Positions 3,229-20,177 of a stretch of DNA of 20,177 nt are shown one piece after another. Source of the stretch: a virus. The translations under genes were made by a program, and so were the position numbers. Within the stretch, counting starts at the first letter, position 1, and every line of letters starts with the position of its first letter. The DNA lies in the IMG/VR virus record IMGVR_UViG_3300014913_000576, positions 1 to 20,177 of that record; one strand, given 5' to 3'. The notes under the pieces were generated by a model, which was given only the letters and a program-made list of their open reading frames with translations, did not search any database and was not told the DNA's origin.

Positions 3229-3275
3229 ATGCTTGACTTTTCAATTTAGTTTTGCTAAGTAACAGTTACTGTGGT
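3229..3275 (+). promoter_or_regulatory. Promoter before the primase gene, with shared 11-mers
   Basis: TTGACT (3233-3238) and TAAGTA (3256-3261) are 17 bp apart, predicting a start near 3268. ATGCTTGACTT (3229-3239) and GTTACTGTGGT (3265-3275) are identical to 11-mers at the 230-258 promoter. Here the second lies at the predicted start, inside the palindrome ACAGT-T-ACTGT (3262-3272). The two promoters therefore probably share regulation. The -10 box is weak. Confidence 0.5.
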
Positions 3276-3303
3276 CGTTTAACATGATTGGATGTGATTG
3301 TAG

Positions 3304-12030: not shown

Positions 12031-13032
12031 ATGCCACGAAAAAAAGCAAGTACCACCAAGGCAAAAAAGAAGACCACGAAGGCTGTGACTGTATCAAGGG
12101 CAATCAAAGTACGCAAAGAGGTTATCGACCTTCGGAAGACGATTGAGACAAATTATCTGGAGCTTGCCAAACGCTTCTCCGAGATTCGGGAAAAGCAGTA
12201 TTACAGGGATTATGGGTTCCAGTCCTTTGCCTCGTATTGTGAAATGGAGTTGGGCATCAAATCTCGTCGAGCAATCTATCTGTCGGATATCTGGAATATG
12301 GTGTCAGAGTATCACTTGTCTATTCCACAAATCAGATCAATTGGGTGGACTAAAGCGAAAGAGCTTACTCGCGTGCTCACTGCCGATAATGCCAAGGAGC
12401 TGATTGCCTTGGCAAAGGATATGAGTGTGGGTGAGTTGCAGCAGGAAGTAAGGAAGTTGGCCTCTCCTGGTGTTACTGTCACTCCGCCACCTACGACCCT
12501 GACAAAGATTGAATTCCGCTTGGATGAATCGGAGGCCGATGTGATTACATCAGCCCTGGAAGCGGCCAAGAGCATGATCGAGACCGAGAATGGCACCACC
12601 GCACTTGAGCATATTTGCTCTACCTGGCTGCAAGAACATGAGGATGCAGCTCCGCCGTCAGTGGAATCCATCATTGCATATGTGAAGCGGGTATTCGGGG
12701 TTGACTTGGTTGAGGCCACAACGATTGTTGCAGACAGTCCCGATGATGCCACGGAGCAGCTGAGTGACGATGCTGGTGATGAGCAGCAAGAGGAGGGGGA
12801 TGATCCCCTGGTATTGCTAGATAAGTTACGCACCAAAAAACAGCTTCGAGCTTTTATTAAAGACAATGCCCTCGGCGTGCGTATTTCTAGGAAGGATAAA
12901 ATTGCGGACATCAAGAACAACATCCGCGATGCTATGGATGCTATTGCTGGTTCAGACAGCGCCGATGAACCGTCGGACGAAGACATCGAAGTCGATGAGG
13001 AAGACATCAATGCTATTTTAGGAATTGGTTGA
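12031..13032 (+). CDS. Basic/acidic bipartite protein, putative DNA-binding
   Basis: 333 residues, excellent SD (AAAGGAGG). Residues 1-30 are extremely Lys-rich. About 30-145 is helical with a possible HTH (LAKRFSEIREKQYYRDYGFQ, then SRRAIYLSDIW), reminiscent of phage DUF3102-type proteins. A Pro-rich linker (150-157), a second helical domain (160-230), an acidic linker, and a short SAP/LEM-like helix pair (264-305: LDKLRTKKQLRAFIKDNALG...KIADIKNNI) follow. The C-terminus is acidic. SAP-type helix pairs often bind DNA. The function is unknown; the bipartite charge and the neighbouring AAA+ ATPase would suit a chromatin-like or partition-related role, but that is speculation. Confidence 0.75.
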   Translation: MPRKKASTTKAKKKTTKAVTVSRAIKVRKEVIDLRKTIETNYLELAKRFSEIREKQYYRDYGFQSFASYCEMELGIKSRRAIYLSDIWNMVSEYHLSIPQIRSIGWTKAKELTRVLTADNAKELIALAKDMSVGELQQEVRKLASPGVTVTPPPTTLTKIEFRLDESEADVITSALEAAKSMIETENGTTALEHICSTWLQEHEDAAPPSVESIIAYVKRVFGVDLVEATTIVADSPDDATEQLSDDAGDEQQEEGDDPLVLLDKLRTKKQLRAFIKDNALGVRISRKDKIADIKNNIRDAMDAIAGSDSADEPSDEDIEVDEEDINAILGIG

Positions 13033-13175
13033 TGTCCAAACCTCCTGGTATGGGCCAATATATTGATGATCGGCATTTCTTATTCAAGTTATCGTCTGAT
13101 GATAACCGTGGGATGTCGATCATCCTTAATTATGGTTTTGAGGGGAGGGTTGTTGATGTCAGCAAGAAGATATGA
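13032..13175 (+). CDS. Small 47-residue protein of unknown function
   Basis: The ATG overlaps the preceding stop (TGATG) and the ORF runs 47 codons, overlapping the start of the next small gene by 20 nt, like the tight coupling around it. The protein starts MSKPPGMGQYIDDRHFLFKL and continues with a short beta-like region, ending VVDVSKKI. Residues 4-9 (PPGMGQ) are encoded by copy 1 of the dispersed 26-nt element. An internal ATG (13050) inside the element is a possible alternative start. No family was recognised. Coding status rests on position and overlap rather than on homology. Confidence 0.5.
   Translation: MSKPPGMGQYIDDRHFLFKLSSDDNRGMSIILNYGFEGRVVDVSKKI
13041..13064 (+). repeat. Dispersed 26-nt element, copy 1 (diverged at its 3' part)
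   Basis: CCTCCTGGTATG is followed by GGCCAATATATT. It matches the consensus over the first 12 bases and in GCCAA. Unlike other copies it lies in the first codons of a probable small gene, reading K-P-P-G-M-G-Q. The nearest downstream purine-rich SD (GGGGAGGG, 13142) is about 90 nt away, so local SD masking is doubtful here. Confidence 0.75.
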
Positions 13176-13347
13176 TACTGTTCGTACAGACAAGCGAAGA
13201 ACGAAATGCAGATGTCCTAAATGCCGTCGATACCATCATGCTGCGGTGTTCTACACAGGCAGAGGCATCTGCTGGAAATATTGTGACTCATGTGCACAAA
13301 CACTACATACAGTAGGGTATTACGATGGCGAGTCCAAAAAAGTATGA
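13156..13347 (+). CDS. Zinc-ribbon microprotein
   Basis: 63 residues. ATG 13156 was chosen because GGGGAGGG lies 6 nt upstream; longer in-frame starts lack an SD and read through the previous gene in another frame. A basic N-terminus leads into C18, C20-x2-C23 and then C39, C43-x2-C46, which should form one zinc ribbon. Similar small phage zinc proteins bind nucleic acid or inhibit host proteins; no partner can be named. It overlaps both neighbours, so translation is probably coupled. Confidence 0.7.
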   Translation: MSARRYDTVRTDKRRTKCRCPKCRRYHHAAVFYTGRGICWKYCDSCAQTLHTVGYYDGESKKV

Positions 13348-14278
13348 GGATCGTATGGATATTGATAAGCGCGGATTGTTTGAGATGTATCGAAATGGGC
13401 TGCGCGTAGGGATACGACGCGGCTCTGGATCAAGCATCGTGGCTGCTTTTAATGCGCTGTGGCAATATCATCGTGACTTTTTGGTGGAGCAGGAGTTGCA
13501 GCTTGTTGGTGTAGATGAGCTCTGGGGCAGCCTTGCTTTAGCCGCCGAGACTACCAAGACAGTGCAGGGACTTATAAAAGCAGGGAAAGAGGATGCAGCT
13601 AAGCGGGCAGCTTTCAAATTTATCCGGACATTAGCGTTAGCAAAAGGAAACCGATCTCCGTACTATTTAATGCGGGTTGCCACTGAGCCGTGGATAAAAA
13701 AATCCACGTTAAACATATCACGGCAATTGCCGAAGCGGGAGCTGGATATTGCGCTGAAAATAACTAGCCCACTACTATCCACATCGTTTTGGTCTCCGTT
13801 ACAGAAGGCAGCAAAACAAAAGGCCACTAAGGATTATGTAAGGCGCTGCCGTTCTCTCTATGACCAGTCTATAACAAATTACGATAAGCGGTTGGTAGCA
13901 TCGGCAGCTATAAAGGCTGTGGTGGAACCATCCGCTGTTCCTGTGATAACAGATGCAATCAATTGCATGTCTGTGCATTTCGGGGAGAACGAGAAAATAT
14001 CATGGAATTTTGTTCATCCTGATAGTTATGTCGGTGGCGTGGCCTTATCAGAAGTGTCCAAGCTGCTACGAATTCCTAAATCAACAATACGCATAGCGTG
14101 GTTGACCAAATATGTTGATAGGGAAATAAATGCATCCCGATCATTGTGGCAATCAATCTATACCAGCCGTGCTAACGTGCTTACATCAAACACCGACTGG
14201 CACAATTATGCCGTTCACCTGATGGTAGTGTGCCATGATTGGATCAATACATATGGAAGAATCGCTAGAAGAAATTGA
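13325..14278 (+). CDS. Helical protein of unknown function (faint RarA C-terminal-like pattern)
   Basis: 317 residues, starting inside the previous gene with GTAGGG upstream of ATG. The protein is almost all helical and has no P-loop. Residues about 30-75 (RRGSGSSIVAAFNALWQYHR... then GVDELWGSL) have the rhythm of the helical collar domain of RarA/MgsA and clamp loaders, where the motif is R-x-(S/G)-D-x-x-A and S-E-D-I-G-L-A. This resemblance is weak and by eye only. The C-terminal 80 residues contain a possible HTH (LSEVSKLLRIPKSTIRIAWL). Its position before the terminase genes could mean a packaging or clamp-related function; neither is established. Confidence 0.65.
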   Translation: MASPKKYEDRMDIDKRGLFEMYRNGLRVGIRRGSGSSIVAAFNALWQYHRDFLVEQELQLVGVDELWGSLALAAETTKTVQGLIKAGKEDAAKRAAFKFIRTLALAKGNRSPYYLMRVATEPWIKKSTLNISRQLPKRELDIALKITSPLLSTSFWSPLQKAAKQKATKDYVRRCRSLYDQSITNYDKRLVASAAIKAVVEPSAVPVITDAINCMSVHFGENEKISWNFVHPDSYVGGVALSEVSKLLRIPKSTIRIAWLTKYVDREINASRSLWQSIYTSRANVLTSNTDWHNYAVHLMVVCHDWINTYGRIARRN

Positions 14279-15083
14279 AAAACAAACGATGGACGGTGTT
14301 GTAGACCAAGCTCTTGTAGACAAGGCGGTCGAGAATCGGTTATTGCTGCGTCTACGCAAAGCCGCCTATTATCTTCCCAATGGCCGAAAGGCCGCTAAAG
14401 TGTCAATAATCGGGAAAAATCTTACGGATGCCCAGCTGCTTGAGGTATGGGGGCGGTTATCTCATGCAAAAAAAACCGGCACCCCTGTGTATGATGAGCT
14501 AGCAAGGAAGATACAAGAAGACTGGGGGCAGCTCAAAGAGTATACTCGGTGGGCTGTTTCAAGAGCACTCCAGTATTACGAGCAGCGCATATTCGGACTA
14601 CTTGGGGTTGTAGAGTCTATCCCGGAATTAAAAGAATGGGCAAATACAAAGCTGGCGGCTGTGCGTAAGATAGTCAAGCGGGTTGACGGTCTGGAAACGC
14701 TGTCCGATGCCATTCATTTACAGATGAATCGTATTGAGATGGCAGTTGATCTGGAACAAAAGCCGAAGAAGCCAAAACTGACACCATTTTTGAACAAGGA
14801 ATTTGATATTCTTACGAAGATGGTAAAGACATACATGGAATACCAGCTGGAATTCGGCGTGGTTTCCCGGCAGCCACATAAGTTACAAGTGGGGATGCTA
14901 CAAGAGGGGTTTAATAAACAAACCCGCCGGATCGAGCAAACCGTTGGACGGGACCCGATGATTCAGGCAACTACACGGTTTCTGGATATACTGAGGAACA
15001 AGAAACCGGATGAATGTCTGGAGCTTCCCCCGCCAGATGAGGAAATAATAGAGGCCGAAGTAGAGGAACCGGAAGCGTCGTGA
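14253..15083 (+). CDS. Putative terminase small subunit (positional)
   Basis: 276 residues from ATG 14253; an alternative ATG at 14235 has no better SD, and TTGGA precedes the chosen one. The protein is helical throughout. It has a possible HTH-like segment (about VSIIGKNLTDAQLLEVWGRL), a central helical hairpin, a Pro/Lys linker (KPKKPKLTP) and a C-terminal helical region ending in an acidic tail. The small terminase subunit usually lies directly upstream of the large one and is helical and DNA-binding. Here the two overlap by 4 nt (GTGA). Length is greater than many small subunits (about 150-200), and no family signature is certain. Confidence 0.5.
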   Translation: MEESLEEIEKQTMDGVVDQALVDKAVENRLLLRLRKAAYYLPNGRKAAKVSIIGKNLTDAQLLEVWGRLSHAKKTGTPVYDELARKIQEDWGQLKEYTRWAVSRALQYYEQRIFGLLGVVESIPELKEWANTKLAAVRKIVKRVDGLETLSDAIHLQMNRIEMAVDLEQKPKKPKLTPFLNKEFDILTKMVKTYMEYQLEFGVVSRQPHKLQVGMLQEGFNKQTRRIEQTVGRDPMIQATTRFLDILRNKKPDECLELPPPDEEIIEAEVEEPEAS

Positions 15084-17302
15084 AATATTTATCAGAGACA
15101 TCGCTGGAGCAGGATATTCGACAAGCCGCTTCCGGAATATTCCCAGACGATGATAAAAAAGCTATCGGATTTCTTGAATCCGCACTGATGGACCTGCAAT
15201 CTTCCGTTCTGAGTCGAACGTACAAAGGTGTTCGGTATTACCCGAAGGACGAGTCTGTGTATTTCGTGGAGAATTGGATACAAGCCTACCTAAATAACGA
15301 TGCCTCGTACCTGCTGGCTCCGCGTGGATTGACTCGTAAAATTGTTGATGTGGAGGAATTCGCCTGTTCCAGCGAGTACCTTGGGTTGGGTGGTTCGATC
15401 CGGTATCGTATTTTGCAGGAATTGAAGAGGCTAAACAGTGGTCAGGGTTATATTGAGGTTGTATTGGGTGGTGGTATTGGGATAGGAAAGAATTTTTTCG
15501 CTGACATCGCTATATTGTACGACATCTATAAACTTTCCTGTCTGAAATCTCCACAGCTTGAATACGGACTGGCGCCAGGATCGTCGATTGTGTTCGTGTT
15601 ACAGTCAATAAACGAGACCTTGGCACGGAAAGTCGTATTTCGCTCCATCCGGACTAAAGTATTGTCATCGCCTTATTTCAAGCGCTACTTTCCTCCGGAC
15701 CCTAAGATAAAAACTGAATTGATATTCCCCAACAACATTTCTGTGGCTCCTATAACAGCAAGTGATACATCTGCACTCGGTACGAATGTTTTCGGGGGCT
15801 ATTTAGATGAGATAAATTATCACCCTAAGCGCCTACGATCTCAGCTGACCGTGCTCAGAGGAGATTCTGAGTACGATAAAGCCACGATCCTATACCAAAC
15901 CATGCGGAGGCGCATGAAGTCACGTTTCATGATGCGCGGCTCTATTCCTGGGCGTATTTATTTGGTTGCTTCTGCCAATTATCCGCAAGATTTCATCAGC
16001 AGGAAGATAGAGGAGGCCAAAGAGGATAAAACAATCTTTGTCATGAATATGCCTCAGTGGGAATCGCACCGACTGGCGGATGGTTCTCTAGACCCGAAAA
16101 AATATAGCGGGCATATGTTCACGGTGGACTTAGGAAATGCCCAGAAGCCTGCCCGGATTTTAGCAGACCACGAAGACCCGGATGATATTGAGAACACCAT
16201 CCAGGTTCCTGTTGAATATCTAAAAGATTTCACGGCGAATATAGATGATGCCTTGCGGGACATTGCGGGTATGCCTCGCTCGAAAAAAACCATGTTCATG
16301 CCAGCGATGGCTATTATAAAACAAGCCACGAAAACGTATAATAAGATAGTCAAGGTACCGGGAAGACAACTGTTTTATGAGAACAAAGTCGATATATCTG
16401 TGTATAAGGATCATCAGTTACGAGATTTGGTGGACACCAGACATATAGACGGCCCCATCCGTAACTGGCGTGAATATGGTTTTGTCCGTGAGCCAGCCTT
16501 TGGTGTTCATATAGATGCTGGTCTATCCGATGACTGTTGTGGAATTGCGGTTGGGCGTGTACTGGGATTATCTGAGGTGAATGAGCTGCGCTCGTATATA
16601 CCAGGGGCGGATAAATTTGTTGCTTACGGAGGCGGGATAAAGGCTCCGATCATATTTATTGATGGTATTCTGTCTATTCGTCCGCCGACAGGCGATGAGA
16701 TTGATCTGACGAAGGTGCAAGGTATTATCTTCACACTGATAAAAATGGGTGTAAATATCAGATGGTTGTCGATGGACCGCTTTGCATCCCCCCAGATGCT
16801 GCAAATGATTCGCAAGTATCGTAACGTAAGCACACGAACCTTATCCGTGGATCATCCTCTTACCCCATATATGGACTATAAGATACTGTACAAGGAGAAC
16901 AGGATTATCCATCCGAATCATCCTGATCTGATCCGTGAATTACGTAACCTGGAGTTGGACCGGAAAAAGGGAGTACACGGCAAGGTGGATCACCCTGTGG
17001 TGGATTCTACTGGAGAGAAAGGCAGCAAAGATTTGGCCGATGCGGTGTGTGGGGTGACGGCATTACTGATAAACCTGAAAGACACATACCGATTCAGGAA
17101 CACGGAGCCGGGAGTAAATCAATATGCCTTGGCGGATATTCCAGGTCCGGATGTAGCGAAGGATAGCGAAGACTATTTGGTGATGGAGGAAGAACAAGAT
17201 ACATCCAAGTCTTCCCGTAGAAGCGCAAGAAATCCGGAAAGACCTCGCAGGGGGGCGACAAGACGAGAGAGAGCTACACGGTTCCGACATCGAATGCTGT
17301 AA
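15080..17302 (+). CDS. Terminase large subunit
   Basis: 740 residues, GTG start overlapping the previous stop. The ATPase half has VVLGGGIGIGKNFFADI (Walker A 130-138) and FGGYLDEIN (Walker B with catalytic Glu, 238-246). The RNase H-like nuclease half shows HIDAGLSDD (Asp 479, with 484/485), WLSMDRF (Asp 566) and SKDLADAVCG (Asp 651, Asp 654), the standard acidic triad. The Walker A position normally S/T is Asn 138, which is atypical. The C-terminal 30 residues are Arg-rich (SSRRSARNPERPRRGATRR), possibly for DNA or portal contact. It powers DNA translocation into the procapsid and cuts genome ends. It is the last gene of its unit; a promoter follows. Confidence 0.93.
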   Translation: MKYLSETSLEQDIRQAASGIFPDDDKKAIGFLESALMDLQSSVLSRTYKGVRYYPKDESVYFVENWIQAYLNNDASYLLAPRGLTRKIVDVEEFACSSEYLGLGGSIRYRILQELKRLNSGQGYIEVVLGGGIGIGKNFFADIAILYDIYKLSCLKSPQLEYGLAPGSSIVFVLQSINETLARKVVFRSIRTKVLSSPYFKRYFPPDPKIKTELIFPNNISVAPITASDTSALGTNVFGGYLDEINYHPKRLRSQLTVLRGDSEYDKATILYQTMRRRMKSRFMMRGSIPGRIYLVASANYPQDFISRKIEEAKEDKTIFVMNMPQWESHRLADGSLDPKKYSGHMFTVDLGNAQKPARILADHEDPDDIENTIQVPVEYLKDFTANIDDALRDIAGMPRSKKTMFMPAMAIIKQATKTYNKIVKVPGRQLFYENKVDISVYKDHQLRDLVDTRHIDGPIRNWREYGFVREPAFGVHIDAGLSDDCCGIAVGRVLGLSEVNELRSYIPGADKFVAYGGGIKAPIIFIDGILSIRPPTGDEIDLTKVQGIIFTLIKMGVNIRWLSMDRFASPQMLQMIRKYRNVSTRTLSVDHPLTPYMDYKILYKENRIIHPNHPDLIRELRNLELDRKKGVHGKVDHPVVDSTGEKGSKDLADAVCGVTALLINLKDTYRFRNTEPGVNQYALADIPGPDVAKDSEDYLVMEEEQDTSKSSRRSARNPERPRRGATRRERATRFRHRML

Positions 17303-17318
17303 TCGTATAAGAAAAGTA

Positions 17319-17347
17319 TTGACATTTCTATTTTAATGTGATATAGA
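17319..17347 (+). promoter_or_regulatory. Strong sigma70-like promoter for the accessory region
   Basis: TTGACA (17319-17324) and TATAGA (17342-17347) are 17 bp apart, predicting a start near 17354. The 5' UTR then contains copy 2 of the dispersed element (17375-17400) about 20 nt from the RNA end, followed by SD AGGAGG and ATG 17424. The element is thus transcribed here rather than serving as the promoter. Confidence 0.8.
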
Positions 17348-17374
17348 AAGTTAATCTGTTTTACAAGGGGACGG

Positions 17375-17400
17375 TACCTCCTGGTATGAGCCAAGATAAA
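17375..17400 (+). repeat. Dispersed 26-nt element, copy 2
   Basis: TACCTCCTGGTATG is followed by AGCCAAGATAAA. CCTCCT (17377-17382) is fully complementary to the SD AGGAGG (17414-17419) of the next gene, with 31 nt between, so the leader could fold to mask the SD. The in-frame PPG reading has no start codon upstream: a TAG lies ten codons before it. Confidence 0.85.
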
Positions 17401-17423
17401 TCAACAAAAGAAAAGGAGGCAAA

Positions 17424-17864
17424 ATGCAGAGAGCAAAGACAATTCTCGTCAACAAGATCGGGAAAGAGGCCGCAGATGAAGTTATGAAGGCCGTGGAATC
17501 TTATTATTCCGCCGAAAAACAGATGGAAAAAGCCAGGCGTGAGTTTGAAAAGAGCACGGGATTTCTGGTCAAAGTTATGGCTGAGGCCAAAGAGACGATT
17601 CTGACTATTGCCGAGGAGCATAACCTCCGGTCAGTTAAAGCAGGGCAGTTGACCTGTGCGATCAAATCACGGAAGACCACCAAGATTGATGCAGGGAAGC
17701 TGTGGGGACTGGCGATCAAGAAGGGACTGGCCAAGCAGTATTACACCATTGTCAATCCTCTTGTGGGCAAGGCGAAAGCACTGTTCGGAGCGAAAGTGCT
17801 GAAAGATTCCGGGGTGCTTACCGAGGAAGTGAATAAGTATCACAGCATCAAGGTAACCAAGTAG
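17424..17864 (+). CDS. Coiled-coil protein of unknown function
   Basis: 146 residues with a near-ideal SD (AAAGGAGG). Residues about 15-66 are a charged heptad-like helix (AADEVMKAVESYYSAEKQME onwards), likely a coiled coil. The C-terminal 80 residues start with a beta-rich stretch (LRSVKAGQLTCAIKSRKTTK) and end in a Lys-rich helical part. The layout resembles several small phage proteins with an N-terminal coiled coil, including Gam-type end-binding proteins, but I see no specific Gam signature. The strong promoter and SD suggest high expression, possibly gated by the dispersed element. A pseudoknot-forming 3' UTR begins 2 nt after the stop. Confidence 0.75.
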   Translation: MQRAKTILVNKIGKEAADEVMKAVESYYSAEKQMEKARREFEKSTGFLVKVMAEAKETILTIAEEHNLRSVKAGQLTCAIKSRKTTKIDAGKLWGLAIKKGLAKQYYTIVNPLVGKAKALFGAKVLKDSGVLTEEVNKYHSIKVTK

Positions 17865-17865
17865 C

Positions 17866-17961
17866 CGTAGCCACTGTGTGTTCATGATACTACATTTGCC
17901 GTGATGTGTAGCGGTTACAGCCTACACAGTGGTTATGCCAGGCCGCGGCGGCTGTAATCGC
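17866..17961 (+). ncRNA. Second H-type pseudoknot, in the 3' UTR
   Basis: Stem A pairs 17866-17879 (CGTAGCCACTGTGT) with 17924-17937 (ACACAGTGGTTATG): 14 bp with two G-U. Stem B pairs 17911-17922 (GCGGTTACAGCC) with 17950-17961 (GGCTGTAATCGC): 12 bp with one G-U. The order A-B-A'-B' with a single nucleotide between B and A' makes the helices cross and probably stack. Loop 1 is 31 nt and can hold a small CTACA/TGTAG hairpin; loop 3 is 12 nt and GC-rich. A terminator follows 20 nt later. This may be a processed small RNA, an mRNA-end stabiliser or a protein-binding site. No known family was recognised. Confidence 0.6.
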
Positions 17962-17981
17962 ACTCCTTGTCGAGTCTGTTT

Positions 17982-18026
17982 TGAGAGGGTCACAGGCAAA
18001 TTGCGGCAGACCCTCTCACTATTTTT
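17982..18026 (+). terminator. Intrinsic terminator
   Basis: GAGAGGGTC (17983-17991) pairs perfectly with GACCCTCTC (18009-18017), extended by T17982/A18018, with a 17-nt loop and the tail CTATTTTT. It ends the transcript carrying the coiled-coil gene and the pseudoknot. The next gene begins 53 nt later, so it needs read-through or a start in between; TTGCGG (18001) and TTTAAA (18024) form only a weak promoter. Confidence 0.8.
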
Positions 18027-18037
18027 AAATATCCTTG

Positions 18038-18063
18038 TACCTCCTGACATGAACCAAAATAAA
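18038..18063 (+). repeat. Dispersed 26-nt element, copy 3
   Basis: TACCTCCTGACATG is followed by AACCAAAATAAA. CTCCT (18041-18045) can pair with AGGAG (18066-18070), the SD of the zinc-finger gene, across a 20-nt loop. The internal ATG opens the mini-ORF M-N-Q-N-K, whose TAA stop (18064-18066) adjoins the SD. If the element itself were a promoter with AATAAA as -10, the RNA would start after the SD, which argues against that role. Confidence 0.85.
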
Positions 18064-18078
18064 TAAGGAGTAATTCAC

Positions 18079-18279
18079 ATGGGAGAAGTACATGATCTGT
18101 GGCACGAGGAATGCTCTAAACCATTCTCCATTGCTGCGGGCCGCTGTTCTGATCGTTGCCCTACATGCCAGTATCCATTATCTACTGATCTTCGCGGCTA
18201 CCATTTCTGTCGTAATTGCTTAGCTGCCGCAGCAGAGGTGCTACGTAATGTCAATAGCCTGGAATCTGTCTGTCAGTAA
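18079..18279 (+). CDS. Zinc-finger microprotein
   Basis: 66 residues with SD AAGGAG. Cys 27-x2-Cys 30 and Cys 44-x2-Cys 47 form a treble-clef or zinc-ribbon-like site (CPTCQYPLS... then HFCRNC); C12, C23 and C65 are extra. Function is unknown; such proteins in phage accessory regions often bind nucleic acid or host proteins. It overlaps the next ORF by 32 nt and is preceded by dispersed-element copy 3. Confidence 0.7.
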   Translation: MGEVHDLWHEECSKPFSIAAGRCSDRCPTCQYPLSTDLRGYHFCRNCLAAAAEVLRNVNSLESVCQ

Positions 18280-18787
18280 TGTTCAAGGTGTGGACTTGAT
18301 ACCTGACTTTGTCAACTTTATCAGGAAGAGTGTGGATAAGCACCTAAAGAACCATATCGCTGTGATTGGCGTGGAATCTGTCCAGTTTGAGATAGACCGT
18401 GATCATATAAATCCTGCGTTTCTATCTATCACAGACTCAGCGTGCTGTGATACCGTTTGGAGCGCAAACGTTACGCACACTATATTTCGTTTACGAATTG
18501 TCATTCGTTGTGCTTTTACCGCAGACCCTATTCTCCCGTGGGAGAGTAGTTTGCGGATATCCGATCAGCACGAAGCGCTTCGTATTTGTAGTGAGGGTCT
18601 AGTATGCAGTGCTCGTGTTCGCTCTTGGATATTTGAAACCATAACGCAATTGGTATTGCGTTTGGATGATATTACAAGAAGAAATTGTGATGTGTCCGTA
18701 CCTCCTACCATGAGCCAAAATATCAAGGATACCAAACAACATCGGGTGATACGACTGCGAAAAGAAATTTTAGCCAAGATTAAGTAA
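18248..18787 (+). CDS. Unknown protein ending in the element-encoded peptide
   Basis: 179 residues, with GAGGTG before ATG 18248. The protein is mixed alpha/beta with no recognisable family. Residues 152-158 (VPPTMSQ) are encoded by copy 4 of the dispersed element; a strongly basic tail of about 20 residues follows (KDTKQHRVIRLRKEILAKIK). The ATG inside the element (18710) is in the same frame, so a separate 25-residue basic peptide could also be made. The basic tail may therefore be a separate module joined by the element, but this is inference. Confidence 0.6.
   Translation: MSIAWNLSVSNVQGVDLIPDFVNFIRKSVDKHLKNHIAVIGVESVQFEIDRDHINPAFLSITDSACCDTVWSANVTHTIFRLRIVIRCAFTADPILPWESSLRISDQHEALRICSEGLVCSARVRSWIFETITQLVLRLDDITRRNCDVSVPPTMSQNIKDTKQHRVIRLRKEILAKIK
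18699..18724 (+). repeat. Dispersed 26-nt element, copy 4 (inside a reading frame)
   Basis: TACCTCCTACCATG is followed by AGCCAAAATATC, inside the 18248-18787 frame and read V-P-P-T-M-S-Q-N. TCCT (18703-18706) could pair with AGGA (18726-18729), only 4 bp, so SD masking is weak. No gene start follows until 18888. Confidence 0.8.
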
Positions 18788-18843
18788 TAAAGATTACAAT
18801 AGTTTTCTGCCTAACTATTTAATATATATGTTGTTTTTACTAT

Positions 18844-18865
18844 TTGTATTCAGATTGTATTCAGA
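18844..18865 (+). repeat. Tandem 11-bp repeat
   Basis: TTGTATTCAGA occurs twice back to back (18844-18854 and 18855-18865) in the AT-rich 100-bp gap, ending 22 nt before the GTG of the leader ORF. The 11-bp period is about one helical turn, as expected for a paired operator, but no clear promoter is placed around it. Confidence 0.7.
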
Positions 18866-18887
18866 AAAAAAATAGGGAGGTATTATC

Positions 18888-18989
18888 GTGTTGAAATTTA
18901 TATGGTTTTTACTCACTCATCGTTCGTTTCCTTTGCCTCTTTACTTATACCCGTTACCTCCTGGTATCGGCCAAAATAAATGGAGGTAA
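18888..18989 (+). CDS. 33-residue leader peptide containing the PPG motif
   Basis: GTG start with a strong SD (AGGGAGG, 18874-18880) 7 nt upstream. The peptide is hydrophobic and Pro-rich, ending YLYPLPPGIGQNKWR, where LPPGIGQNK is encoded by dispersed-element copy 5. The stop codon TAA (18987-18989) directly follows the SD GGAGG (18982-18986) of the next gene and lies in the 3' arm of a hairpin that masks that SD. Translating this leader would open the hairpin and place a terminating ribosome at the next start, 6 nt away. PPG is a known EF-P-dependent stall motif, so pausing here could tune the coupling. It may be purely regulatory. Confidence 0.6.
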   Translation: MLKFIWFLLTHRSFPLPLYLYPLPPGIGQNKWR

Positions 18990-18990
18990 C
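18953..18990 (+). promoter_or_regulatory. Perfect 9-bp hairpin masking a Shine-Dalgarno (dispersed-element copy 5, 18955-18980)
   Basis: GTTACCTCC (18953-18961) is the exact reverse complement of GGAGGTAAC (18982-18990), with a 20-nt loop formed by the rest of the element. The 3' arm contains the SD for ATG 18996. The folded form should block initiation; ribosomes crossing the leader ORF would unfold it. This is the best-formed of the six element copies. Confidence 0.7.
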
Positions 18991-18995
18991 TTGAC

Positions 18996-19106
18996 ATGCT
19001 TTGGATGTTTTTATGGATAGCATTGGCGTGTGGCTTGGGCGTATTGCTTGGTTATTTTAGTTGCTGGTGTGATGTGTCCTATTTAATCAGGGAAGGGGCG
19101 AGTTAG
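18996..19106 (+). CDS. Single-span membrane microprotein
   Basis: 36 residues, ATG 9 nt after GGAGG. The sequence MLWMFLWIALACGLGVLLGY is a clear transmembrane helix, followed by FSCWCDVSYLIREGAS, which has two Cys and a mildly charged end. There is no signal cleavage site, so it should stay in the inner membrane. Such short membrane proteins in phage accessory regions can be superinfection or lysis modulators; no specific role is supported. Its translation appears gated by the hairpin and leader ORF just upstream. Confidence 0.65.
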   Translation: MLWMFLWIALACGLGVLLGYFSCWCDVSYLIREGAS

Positions 19107-19123
19107 TTGTTGGACAAGATGGC

Positions 19124-19354
19124 GTGGTAGTGTGGCATGAAAAAGGAAACAAACACGGCCAACTCCAAACCAATCTTTTGCTGTTGTTGCCTCAGTTGCG
19201 GGACATTGCAGTTGAAGAAAAGAATGATGTTGCCATTGCGTTCGTAGATATTATCCATTCCGTAATTCATAACAATAACTCGAACACCACTATCATACCT
19301 CCTGGAATGAGCCAAAATAAAAACGGAACCAAAATAAAAATCAAGCCAAAATAA
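19124..19354 (+). CDS. Unknown small protein ending in element-encoded residues
   Basis: 76 residues from GTG 19124, with only a weak TTGGA upstream; GTG 19130 is possible. The N-terminal part is amphipathic helical (LQTNLLLLLPQLRDIAVEEK), then a hydrophobic segment and an Asn-rich stretch. IIPPGMSQNK is encoded by element copy 6, and the Lys-rich end lies in a periodic repeat whose 17-bp period is not a multiple of three. The last 15 residues are therefore probably a by-product of the repeat rather than a selected protein sequence. No family was recognised. Confidence 0.45.
   Translation: MVVWHEKGNKHGQLQTNLLLLLPQLRDIAVEEKNDVAIAFVDIIHSVIHNNNSNTTIIPPGMSQNKNGTKIKIKPK
19296..19321 (+). repeat. 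Dispersed 26-nt element, copy 6
   Basis: TACCTCCTGGAATG is followed by AGCCAAAATAAA, in frame as I-P-P-G-M-S-Q-N-K in the 19124-19354 ORF. It leads straight into tandem partial copies of its own 3' half. No SD lies within 60 nt downstream, so its context differs from copies 2, 3 and 5. Confidence 0.85.
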
Positions 19355-19386
19355 TCAAGCCAAAATAAAAGTCGAGCCAATATTTT
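19311..19386 (+). repeat. Tandem array of GCCAAAATAAA, about 17-bp period
   Basis: GCCAAAATAAA or a close variant starts at 19311, 19328 (ACC), 19345, 19359 and 19376 (diverged, GCCAATATTTT). Spacings are 17, 17, 14 and 17 bp. The unit equals the 3' half of the dispersed 26-nt element. The non-codon period suggests conservation or expansion at the nucleic-acid level. Confidence 0.8.
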
Positions 19387-19408
19387 GACATTTAGCATAA
19401 CAATTAAC

Positions 19409-19555
19409 ATGAGATTCTTGGTGCTTAACCTCATCCCTAACAGCCACAGCACCGCTGCGCTGAGCGCGGACACTGTATTCGTGCAATCAATTGCATGTTG
19501 TGTTGTCTGGCTATTCGCTCTTGCCAATAGGTTACATAAAAGAGATAGAAACTAA
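19409..19555 (+). CDS. Possible 48-residue membrane-anchored protein
   Basis: ATG to TAA over 48 codons. The C-terminal half contains a hydrophobic segment (VQSIACCVVWLFALANRL) followed by HKRDRN, the layout of a tail-anchored or single-span protein with a positive cytosolic end. There is no Shine-Dalgarno before the ATG, and TTGACA (19385) has no good -10 partner, so expression is uncertain. A 17-nt palindromic sequence shared with the 13325 gene lies inside it (19482-19498). Confidence 0.35.
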   Translation: MRFLVLNLIPNSHSTAALSADTVFVQSIACCVVWLFALANRLHKRDRN

Positions 19556-19597
19556 GCGTCATTTTATTATCGTATCAGAATAAATAGGAGGATATAA

Positions 19598-19927
19598 ATG
19601 CGGGCGGTAAAAGCAGATTTAATAATGTCATATCTCATTCAAACTGCGGTTAGAATCATGGATCGTACCCCGGAGCGGTACCGGCGTGCGACGCACGGAA
19701 TAAATTTACTCCACGCAGACGGGCGGGAGCAAGCACTAGAGTATTTATTACAACAAGCTAAGCAGGTGGACGATATCGAAGTGAGACAAATCATACACAA
19801 AATAACGCAAATCATCCGTACAATTCCGATTGATAGCGGGGTGATCCAGCAAAAGCACAGCACACACCCAACGGGAGGCTGGCATGACGCTGACAACGAG
19901 GAAGTCCGGGGTCATAAAAGTTATTGA
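19598..19927 (+). CDS. Small helical protein of unknown function
   Basis: 109 residues with a strong SD (AGGAGG) before ATG, preceded by AATAAAT as at element copies 3 and 5 but without the CCTCCT half. It is predominantly helical: an N-terminal amphipathic helix (LIMSYLIQTAVRIMDRTPER), a central helical region with GREQALEYLLQQAKQV, and a polar Gly/His-rich C-terminus likely disordered. No family was recognised. It is the last likely + strand gene; the remaining 250 nt lack a convincing one. Confidence 0.6.
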   Translation: MRAVKADLIMSYLIQTAVRIMDRTPERYRRATHGINLLHADGREQALEYLLQQAKQVDDIEVRQIIHKITQIIRTIPIDSGVIQQKHSTHPTGGWHDADNEEVRGHKSY

Positions 19928-20177
19928 TCCGTAGTTTATTCCTGTATATTTCGCATCAATCTTTCTCGCCATAACCACACACCACCTCCTGTATTATAAT
20001 CAGTGCCCTTGTTGTATCTTATCCTATGGCCTGGCTGTCTTCCGTGCGACGGCGGCGGAGGACATGGCGGGGCGGTCGGCGCGCGACAAAAAAATAAAAA
20101 CTCAAAAATCTTATTACAATAAAAAAAATAAAAATACTGCCCGACTTATTACAAGCGATCTCGATTATTTACTAAAT
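19928..20177. other. Right-end region without a convincing gene
   Basis: The stretch contains an AGGAGG-type SD on the minus strand (+ strand CCTCCT 19985-19990) ahead of a minus-strand GTG (19978) that would read back across the 19598 gene. It also contains a TATAAT-like sequence, a very GC-rich patch (about 20046-20089) and then an A-rich tract to the window end. A 23-codon Arg-rich + strand ORF at 20026 has no SD. No terminator was seen. Confidence 0.6.

Follow-up and report, generated by a model that had tools for sequence, protein, structure and literature searches.

The window analyzed here is the whole of IMG/VR record IMGVR_UViG_3300014913_000576, a linear fragment of a tailed phage with a length of 20,177 nt. 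Its right part contains a 26-nt element in six copies, all on the plus strand, and in every copy the block ACCTCCT is invariant, which is the complement of AGGAGGT, i.e., an anti-Shine-Dalgarno sequence. The reading tentatively favored below is that the 26-mer is an mRNA leader element, composed of an anti-Shine-Dalgarno arm and a recognition site for a putative factor. Shine-Dalgarno (SD) sequestration is usually described for one gene at a time; an anti-SD module repeated ahead of several accessory genes would, if true, constitute a translational regulon.

The six copies align without insertions or deletions and score 36.2-42.0 bits with a position weight matrix (PWM), versus 5.4 bits for the next best site. 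Allowing up to three mismatches, the 18-mer core is found at exactly these six sites, where shuffles predict 0.03. A preliminary description of this DNA had reported a repeat in six copies, five of them in under 2 kb, and both statements hold (the five span 1.95 kb); the core quoted there was exact only in part, as ACCTCCTGGTATG in copies 1 and 2 and as GCCAAAATAAA in copies 5 and 6. Copy 1 (AACCTCCTGGTATGGGCCAATATATT; 13039-13064) begins 7 nt past the stop codon of the ParB-like gene and is located within a likely coding mini-open reading frame (ORF) at 13032-13175. Copy 2 (TACCTCCTGGTATGAGCCAAGATAAA; 17375-17400) lies in the 5' leader of gene 17424. Copies 3 (TACCTCCTGACATGAACCAAAATAAA; 18038-18063) and 5 (TACCTCCTGGTATCGGCCAAAATAAA; 18955-18980) are followed by genes 18079 and 18996, respectively, each beginning 41 nt downstream. 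Copy 4 (TACCTCCTACCATGAGCCAAAATATC; 18699-18724) is in the 3' end of ORF 18248-18787, 189 nt before gene 18888, and copy 6 (TACCTCCTGGAATGAGCCAAAATAAA; 19296-19321) is in the 3' end of ORF 19124-19354. The invariant columns are 2-8 (ACCTCCT), 12-13 (AT), 17-20 (CCAA) and 22-24 (ATA), i.e., 16 positions in four blocks, and the element can be summarized as TACCTCCTGGTATGAGCCAAAATAAA. CCTCCT occurs seven times on the plus strand of the 20 kb, six times within elements. Behind copy 6, about five tandem units of the right half of the element (AGCCAAAATAA, AGCCAAAATAA(N)) are present on the plus strand at 19310-19393, with a spacing of 14-18 nt.

The elements split the right part of the window into the units ParB-like gene, 13156 to terminase, 17424, 18079-18248, 18888, 18996-19124 and 19598. 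Between the ParB-like gene and gene 19598, one element is present in each gene gap of at least 50 nt, and another just behind the ParB-like gene. No copy is located in the replication genes, whose three clear gaps of that size (before 3304, 4370 and 10447) are all without one. From the start of the element to the start codon of the next unit the distances are 117, 49, 41, 189, 41 and 302 nt for copies 1-6. Three of the six thus begin 41-49 nt before a start codon; with random placement, three or more copies would share a 9-nt bin with P = 0.0005. This clustering and the location of all copies on the coding strand support the preliminary description, which had proposed to tabulate the distance to the next start. 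Gene starts were called by us, with uncertainty about the short ORFs at 13032 and 18888.

Folding predicts that the CCTCCT arm closes the SD of the next gene in copies 1, 2, 4 and 5. The arm of copy 1 forms a predicted long stem-loop (13041-13149, plus strand) with GGGGAGGG, the SD of gene 13156, which bridges 117 nt at -45.7 kcal/mol versus -35.4 ± 2.8 kcal/mol for interval-shuffled sequences, and is more stable than 100 of 100 shuffles. All SD sequences discussed here are on the plus strand. AGGAGG of gene 17424 (17414-17419) has a predicted 6-bp pairing with the arm of copy 2, GGGAGGTA of gene 18888 (18875-18882) is predicted to pair with UACCUCC of copy 4, and GGAGGTAAC of gene 18996 (18982-18990) is a 9-bp complement of GTTACCTCC at copy 5. 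The complementarity of 6, 5 and 9 bp to the next SD noted earlier for copies 2, 3 and 5 can be read directly in the sequence, including AGGAG of gene 18079 (18066-18070) as a 5-nt complement of the copy 3 arm; copies 1 and 4, which reach the next SD over 117 and 189 nt, had been overlooked. The energy required to open the SD is 8.0 kcal/mol in copy 1, 9.9 kcal/mol in copy 4 and 8.7 kcal/mol in copy 5, versus 0.5-4.0 kcal/mol for 11 other genes of the window. Among the upstream 7-mers, the arm is the one whose release lowers this energy most, with gains of 4.8, 0.8, 4.2 and 2.1 kcal/mol in copies 1, 2, 4 and 5. Two leaders, those of copies 1 and 5, exceed shuffled sequences in stability (z = -3.2 and -2.7, respectively).

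The favored reading would work as follows. The 5' block UACCUCCU would act as an anti-SD arm that folds back and holds the SD of the next gene closed, and the 3' block AU...CCAAnAUA, in the loop, would be a recognition or processing site for a putative trans-acting factor. This factor (protein, small RNA or RNase) would decide whether the arm remains paired. With one copy per gene group, accessory genes could come under common translational control. Both the trans-acting factor and the direction of control are what we infer. The full form of this proposal, a phage regulon of one repeated RNA module in which one trans-acting factor, via the arm and CCAAnAUA, simultaneously exposes or closes the ribosome binding sites of several accessory genes, is regarded as less likely than not.

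Several findings weigh against an element that works through SD pairing. The arm of copy 3 is predicted to pair with GGGAG immediately past the ATG (codons 2-3), which leaves the SD open, and copy 6, 302 nt from the start codon, has no SD partner in its predicted fold (SD AGGAGG of gene 19598, 19586-19591). The leaders of copies 2, 3, 4 and 6 are no more stable than shuffles (z = -0.5 to +0.7), and in copies 1, 2, 4 and 5 shuffled intervals retain about five pairs; since pairing is near-automatic for any CCTCCT close to a strong SD, folding alone is no proof of selection for pairing. The arm is constant where its SD partner varies (copies 3 and 5), the arm accounts for only six of the 16 invariant positions, leaving 10 outside it, and copies 1, 4 and 6 lie within ORFs with an in-frame codon bias and are likely coding. 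Nor did the scans described below yield a relative with the element in which arm and SD partner might covary. The translational switch proposed in the preliminary description is partly supported, in that no other upstream segment affects SD opening as much as the arm does in copies 1, 2, 4 and 5; the other half of the element, equally conserved, is left unexplained by pairing. A2 is invariant, yet could pair only in copies 4 and 5. This, the conservation outside the arm and the tandem right halves behind copy 6 imply that something must read the sequence itself, and the element is therefore described as an arm plus a recognition motif. Recurrence of the right half about five times in tandem is as expected of an autonomous recognition motif.

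If the sequence itself is read, a DNA-binding regulator remains a close rival, and we consider it a real possibility. The 26-mer would then be an asymmetric DNA site, as are the operators/stoperators of mycobacteriophage L5, at which a repressor bound in one orientation at the start of or inside each transcription unit blocks initiation or elongation. Such a site would account for the linear conservation over a long stretch, in blocks around a variable middle, for the single orientation relative to transcription, and for positions in short gaps and gene ends, copy 2 being just downstream of a promoter; sites of the L5 type are likewise asymmetric, bound by orientation, intergenic and most variable in the middle (PMC9283540). 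Copies 3 and 6 pose no problem to it, as no pairing partner is needed. It leaves the anti-SD block and the high SD opening energies to chance, however, and a given 6-mer is expected in a 26-mer by chance in about 0.5% of cases, before allowing for other notable motifs. In addition, the fragment holds no known repressor candidate, and the repeats of related loci are palindromic or of the sigma-70 type, not long and asymmetric. A DNA operator would add a system resembling the L5 stoperators to a clade of uncultured phages of 80-120 kb. To our knowledge, regulation in that clade is unstudied.

A phage-specific promoter with RNA starting within the right half is improbable as an explanation. Its own transcripts would lack the anti-SD arm and read-through RNA would be silenced, comparable to gene e and I-TevI of T4, where late transcripts with a start within the 5' arm avoid the hairpin (PMC3014915); 5' ends from internal starts or processing would fall inside AAAATAAA. 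The single copy ahead of each gene group and the lack of a good sigma-70 promoter close to copies 3-6 are in line with this. The copies share no pair of -35/-10 hexamers at 16-18 nt spacing within the element, the AT-rich right half of copies 3 and 5 extends just as far as the SD, and relatives carry repeated sigma-70 promoters instead. One of this type, TTGACA-17-TATAGA with an extended -10 (TGA), is located upstream of copy 2 at 17319-17347 on the plus strand, so that copy 2 is transcribed from it. In the related phages of the clade the repeated promoter has the form TTGACAAA-N11-TGTGA-nAnAAT, one per unit. A T7-type RNA polymerase (PF00940) was found in none of 24 related records, although the control gave no signal either and the window is a fragment. 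A phage-polymerase promoter is thus unlikely, in agreement with the preliminary description, since sigma-70 promoters serve in this clade and one of them precedes copy 2; the polymerase search is weak evidence. Loci L038, L039, L078, L075, L031, L049 and L058 carry repeats of a sigma-70 promoter whose conserved spacer is extended (TTGACAAAC...TGTGAGAnAAT), with a single copy for each gene unit downstream of the terminase.

The element could also be conserved as protein, as a PPGMSQNK tail or leader peptide, in which PPG/PPD would stall ribosomes. The four copies that lie in a likely ORF indeed share one reading frame, which is also open, though apparently non-coding, at copy 3. This agreement is forced, however, because only one frame is free of stops in all copies, and no ORF initiated with ATG, GTG or TTG crosses copy 2. 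The third positions of CCT CCT, CAA and AAT are fixed while the residues change (G/D/T, S/G/N, N/D/Y), which points to selection on the nucleic acid and not on PPGMSQNK. Conservation as protein is rejected on the codon positions and the forced frame, and appears very improbable. Little more credence is given to the element as a linker at which recombination brought accessory gene cassettes together and which plays no part in regulation. The copies are sharply bounded and placed at gene boundaries between ORFan genes, and the ORFs entering copies 3, 4, 5 and 6 stop 0-20 codons beyond them, as a linker would have it; the variation of internal columns next to invariant blocks suggests a recognized sequence rather than simple recombination identity, and no related phage with shuffled cassettes was found.

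Four further candidates were tried and rejected. A palindromic operator TACC-N4-GGTA is broken in copies 3, 4 and 6. An inner TGG/CCA mini-hairpin is intact in four of the six copies and is unsupported, as CC stays invariant where the partner is lost. Read on the reverse strand, AGGAGGTA as the SD of leftward genes has no start codon at a usable distance (copies read by eye). Replication iterons or a tRNA-like RNA do not agree with the irregular spacing (256-4336 nt), the lack of a tRNA and the lack of an Rfam match; an Rfam search of 12500-20177 gave no relevant match up to E = 5.

Pattern scans of IMG/VR, GTDB genomes and the 24 related records, and PWM scans of 1.9 Mb of loci, gave only single, isolated matches, no more often than expected by chance. 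Either this phage alone has the element, or the relatives that share it are unsampled.

Among known systems, the SD-sequestering leaders of T4 (gene e, soc, 49 and I-TevI) have an upstream mRNA arm which pairs with the SD, and expression depends on the presence or opening of that arm (PMC3014915). The element resembles them in that an arm complementary to the SD is found upstream on the same mRNA in all six copies, with SD pairing predicted in copies 1, 2, 4 and 5. It differs in being one 26-nt module before unrelated genes with much conservation outside the arm, whereas the T4 hairpins are individual, and in that an internal promoter is hypothetical here. The stoperators of L5 and cluster A are asymmetric repeats that occupy short intergenic spaces with a single orientation relative to transcription (PMC9283540), a likeness to the six of six copies on the coding strand; they are 13 bp long, number more than 20 per genome and have a known (monomeric) repressor, in contrast to 26 nt, six copies in a fragment, an anti-SD block and no known protein. 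The start-associated sequences (SAS) and ESAS of cluster K mycobacteriophages are short directional repeats near the starts of mostly accessory genes, of unknown function (PMC3203893). SAS have the sequence GGGATAGGAGCCC immediately upstream of the start site, while the element carries an SD complement and ends 15-276 nt upstream of the start codon; beginning 41-302 nt before start codons, it does not match GGGATAGGAGCCC directly before a start, and the earlier remark that the two differ in sequence is correct. Citrobacter phage Mordin (Felix O1-like) has a 26-bp repeat upstream of the translational starts of eight hypothetical genes in one genome arm (PMC4611695), but its consensus CCAACAATCCTAAACTGGAGAATCTA has no block in common with the element and contains GGAG, not the complement of GGAG. 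Neither the cluster K repeats (PMC3203893) nor those of Mordin (PMC4611695), as published, have an anti-SD block. The sigma-70 promoters of the clade (TTGACAAAC...) likewise occur once per gene unit in related loci; they are standard promoters, one of them upstream of copy 2, whereas the 26-mer has no -35/-10. A narrow literature search found no repeated SD-sequestering module in phages.

From left to right, the window encodes a DnaB-type helicase, a primase, an SSB-like protein, a helicase, a UvsX/RecA-like recombinase, an exonuclease, a RuvC-like resolvase and an AAA ATPase, followed by the ParB-like protein (PHROG 17202; 12031-13032, plus strand), two overlapping genes, the terminase large subunit (TerL; 15080-17302, plus strand), which has no internal 26-nt element, and ORFans, including the gene behind copy 2 (17424-17864, plus strand). 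The proteins encoded at 18248 and 13325 are likewise ORFans. The nearest terminases, those of Vibrio phage SIO-2, Stenotrophomonas phages Summit and DLP_5 and IMG/VR contigs, are 33-40% identical, and alignment scans gave a best TerL identity of 39-40%. Single-protein scans with TerL, the AAA ATPase or gene 17424 found no close phage relative. Locus L030 has its gene order in common with the window at about 27-40% protein identity and is devoid of the 26-nt element.

Other repeats were observed in the window and in related loci. The palindrome TGCAATnnATTGCA is present in the window at 13954-13967 and 19482-19495, and in degenerate form at 939 and 6202. It is strongly enriched across the clade: in the related loci L026-L137 (112 loci) it has 256 sites with at most one mismatch versus five for a control palindrome; several related records contain 11-39 exact copies and none of the control, and other relatives have different palindromes. 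TGCAATnnATTGCA may be recognized by a clade regulator or by the ParB-like protein. L030, the closest syntenic relative, contains the palindrome GTGCACACGTGTGCAC three times (3465, 4981 and 13017), apparently in intergenic positions. In L077 (11738-19730), the promoter TATACGTGTATAAT is followed by the conserved leader ACAAACGGATTAAAC directly 5' of start codons in about five copies, and in L074 the start-associated repeat CCATGGAGGGA precedes start codons seven times (1966, 14955, 16469, 18033, 19186, 19392 and 21489). The intergenic region 17864-18037 of the window has no tRNA and no Rfam match; it contains two perfect inverted repeats, CCACTGTG...CACAGTGG and GAGAGGGTC...GACCCTCTC, then CACTATTTTT, and is perhaps a structured RNA or a weak terminator. 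A 28-nt similarity in two copies (TTA-TGTG...TAAC-TGATTGGAT) is located at 293-320 and 3266-3293, 38-50 nt before the gene starts 343 and 3304.

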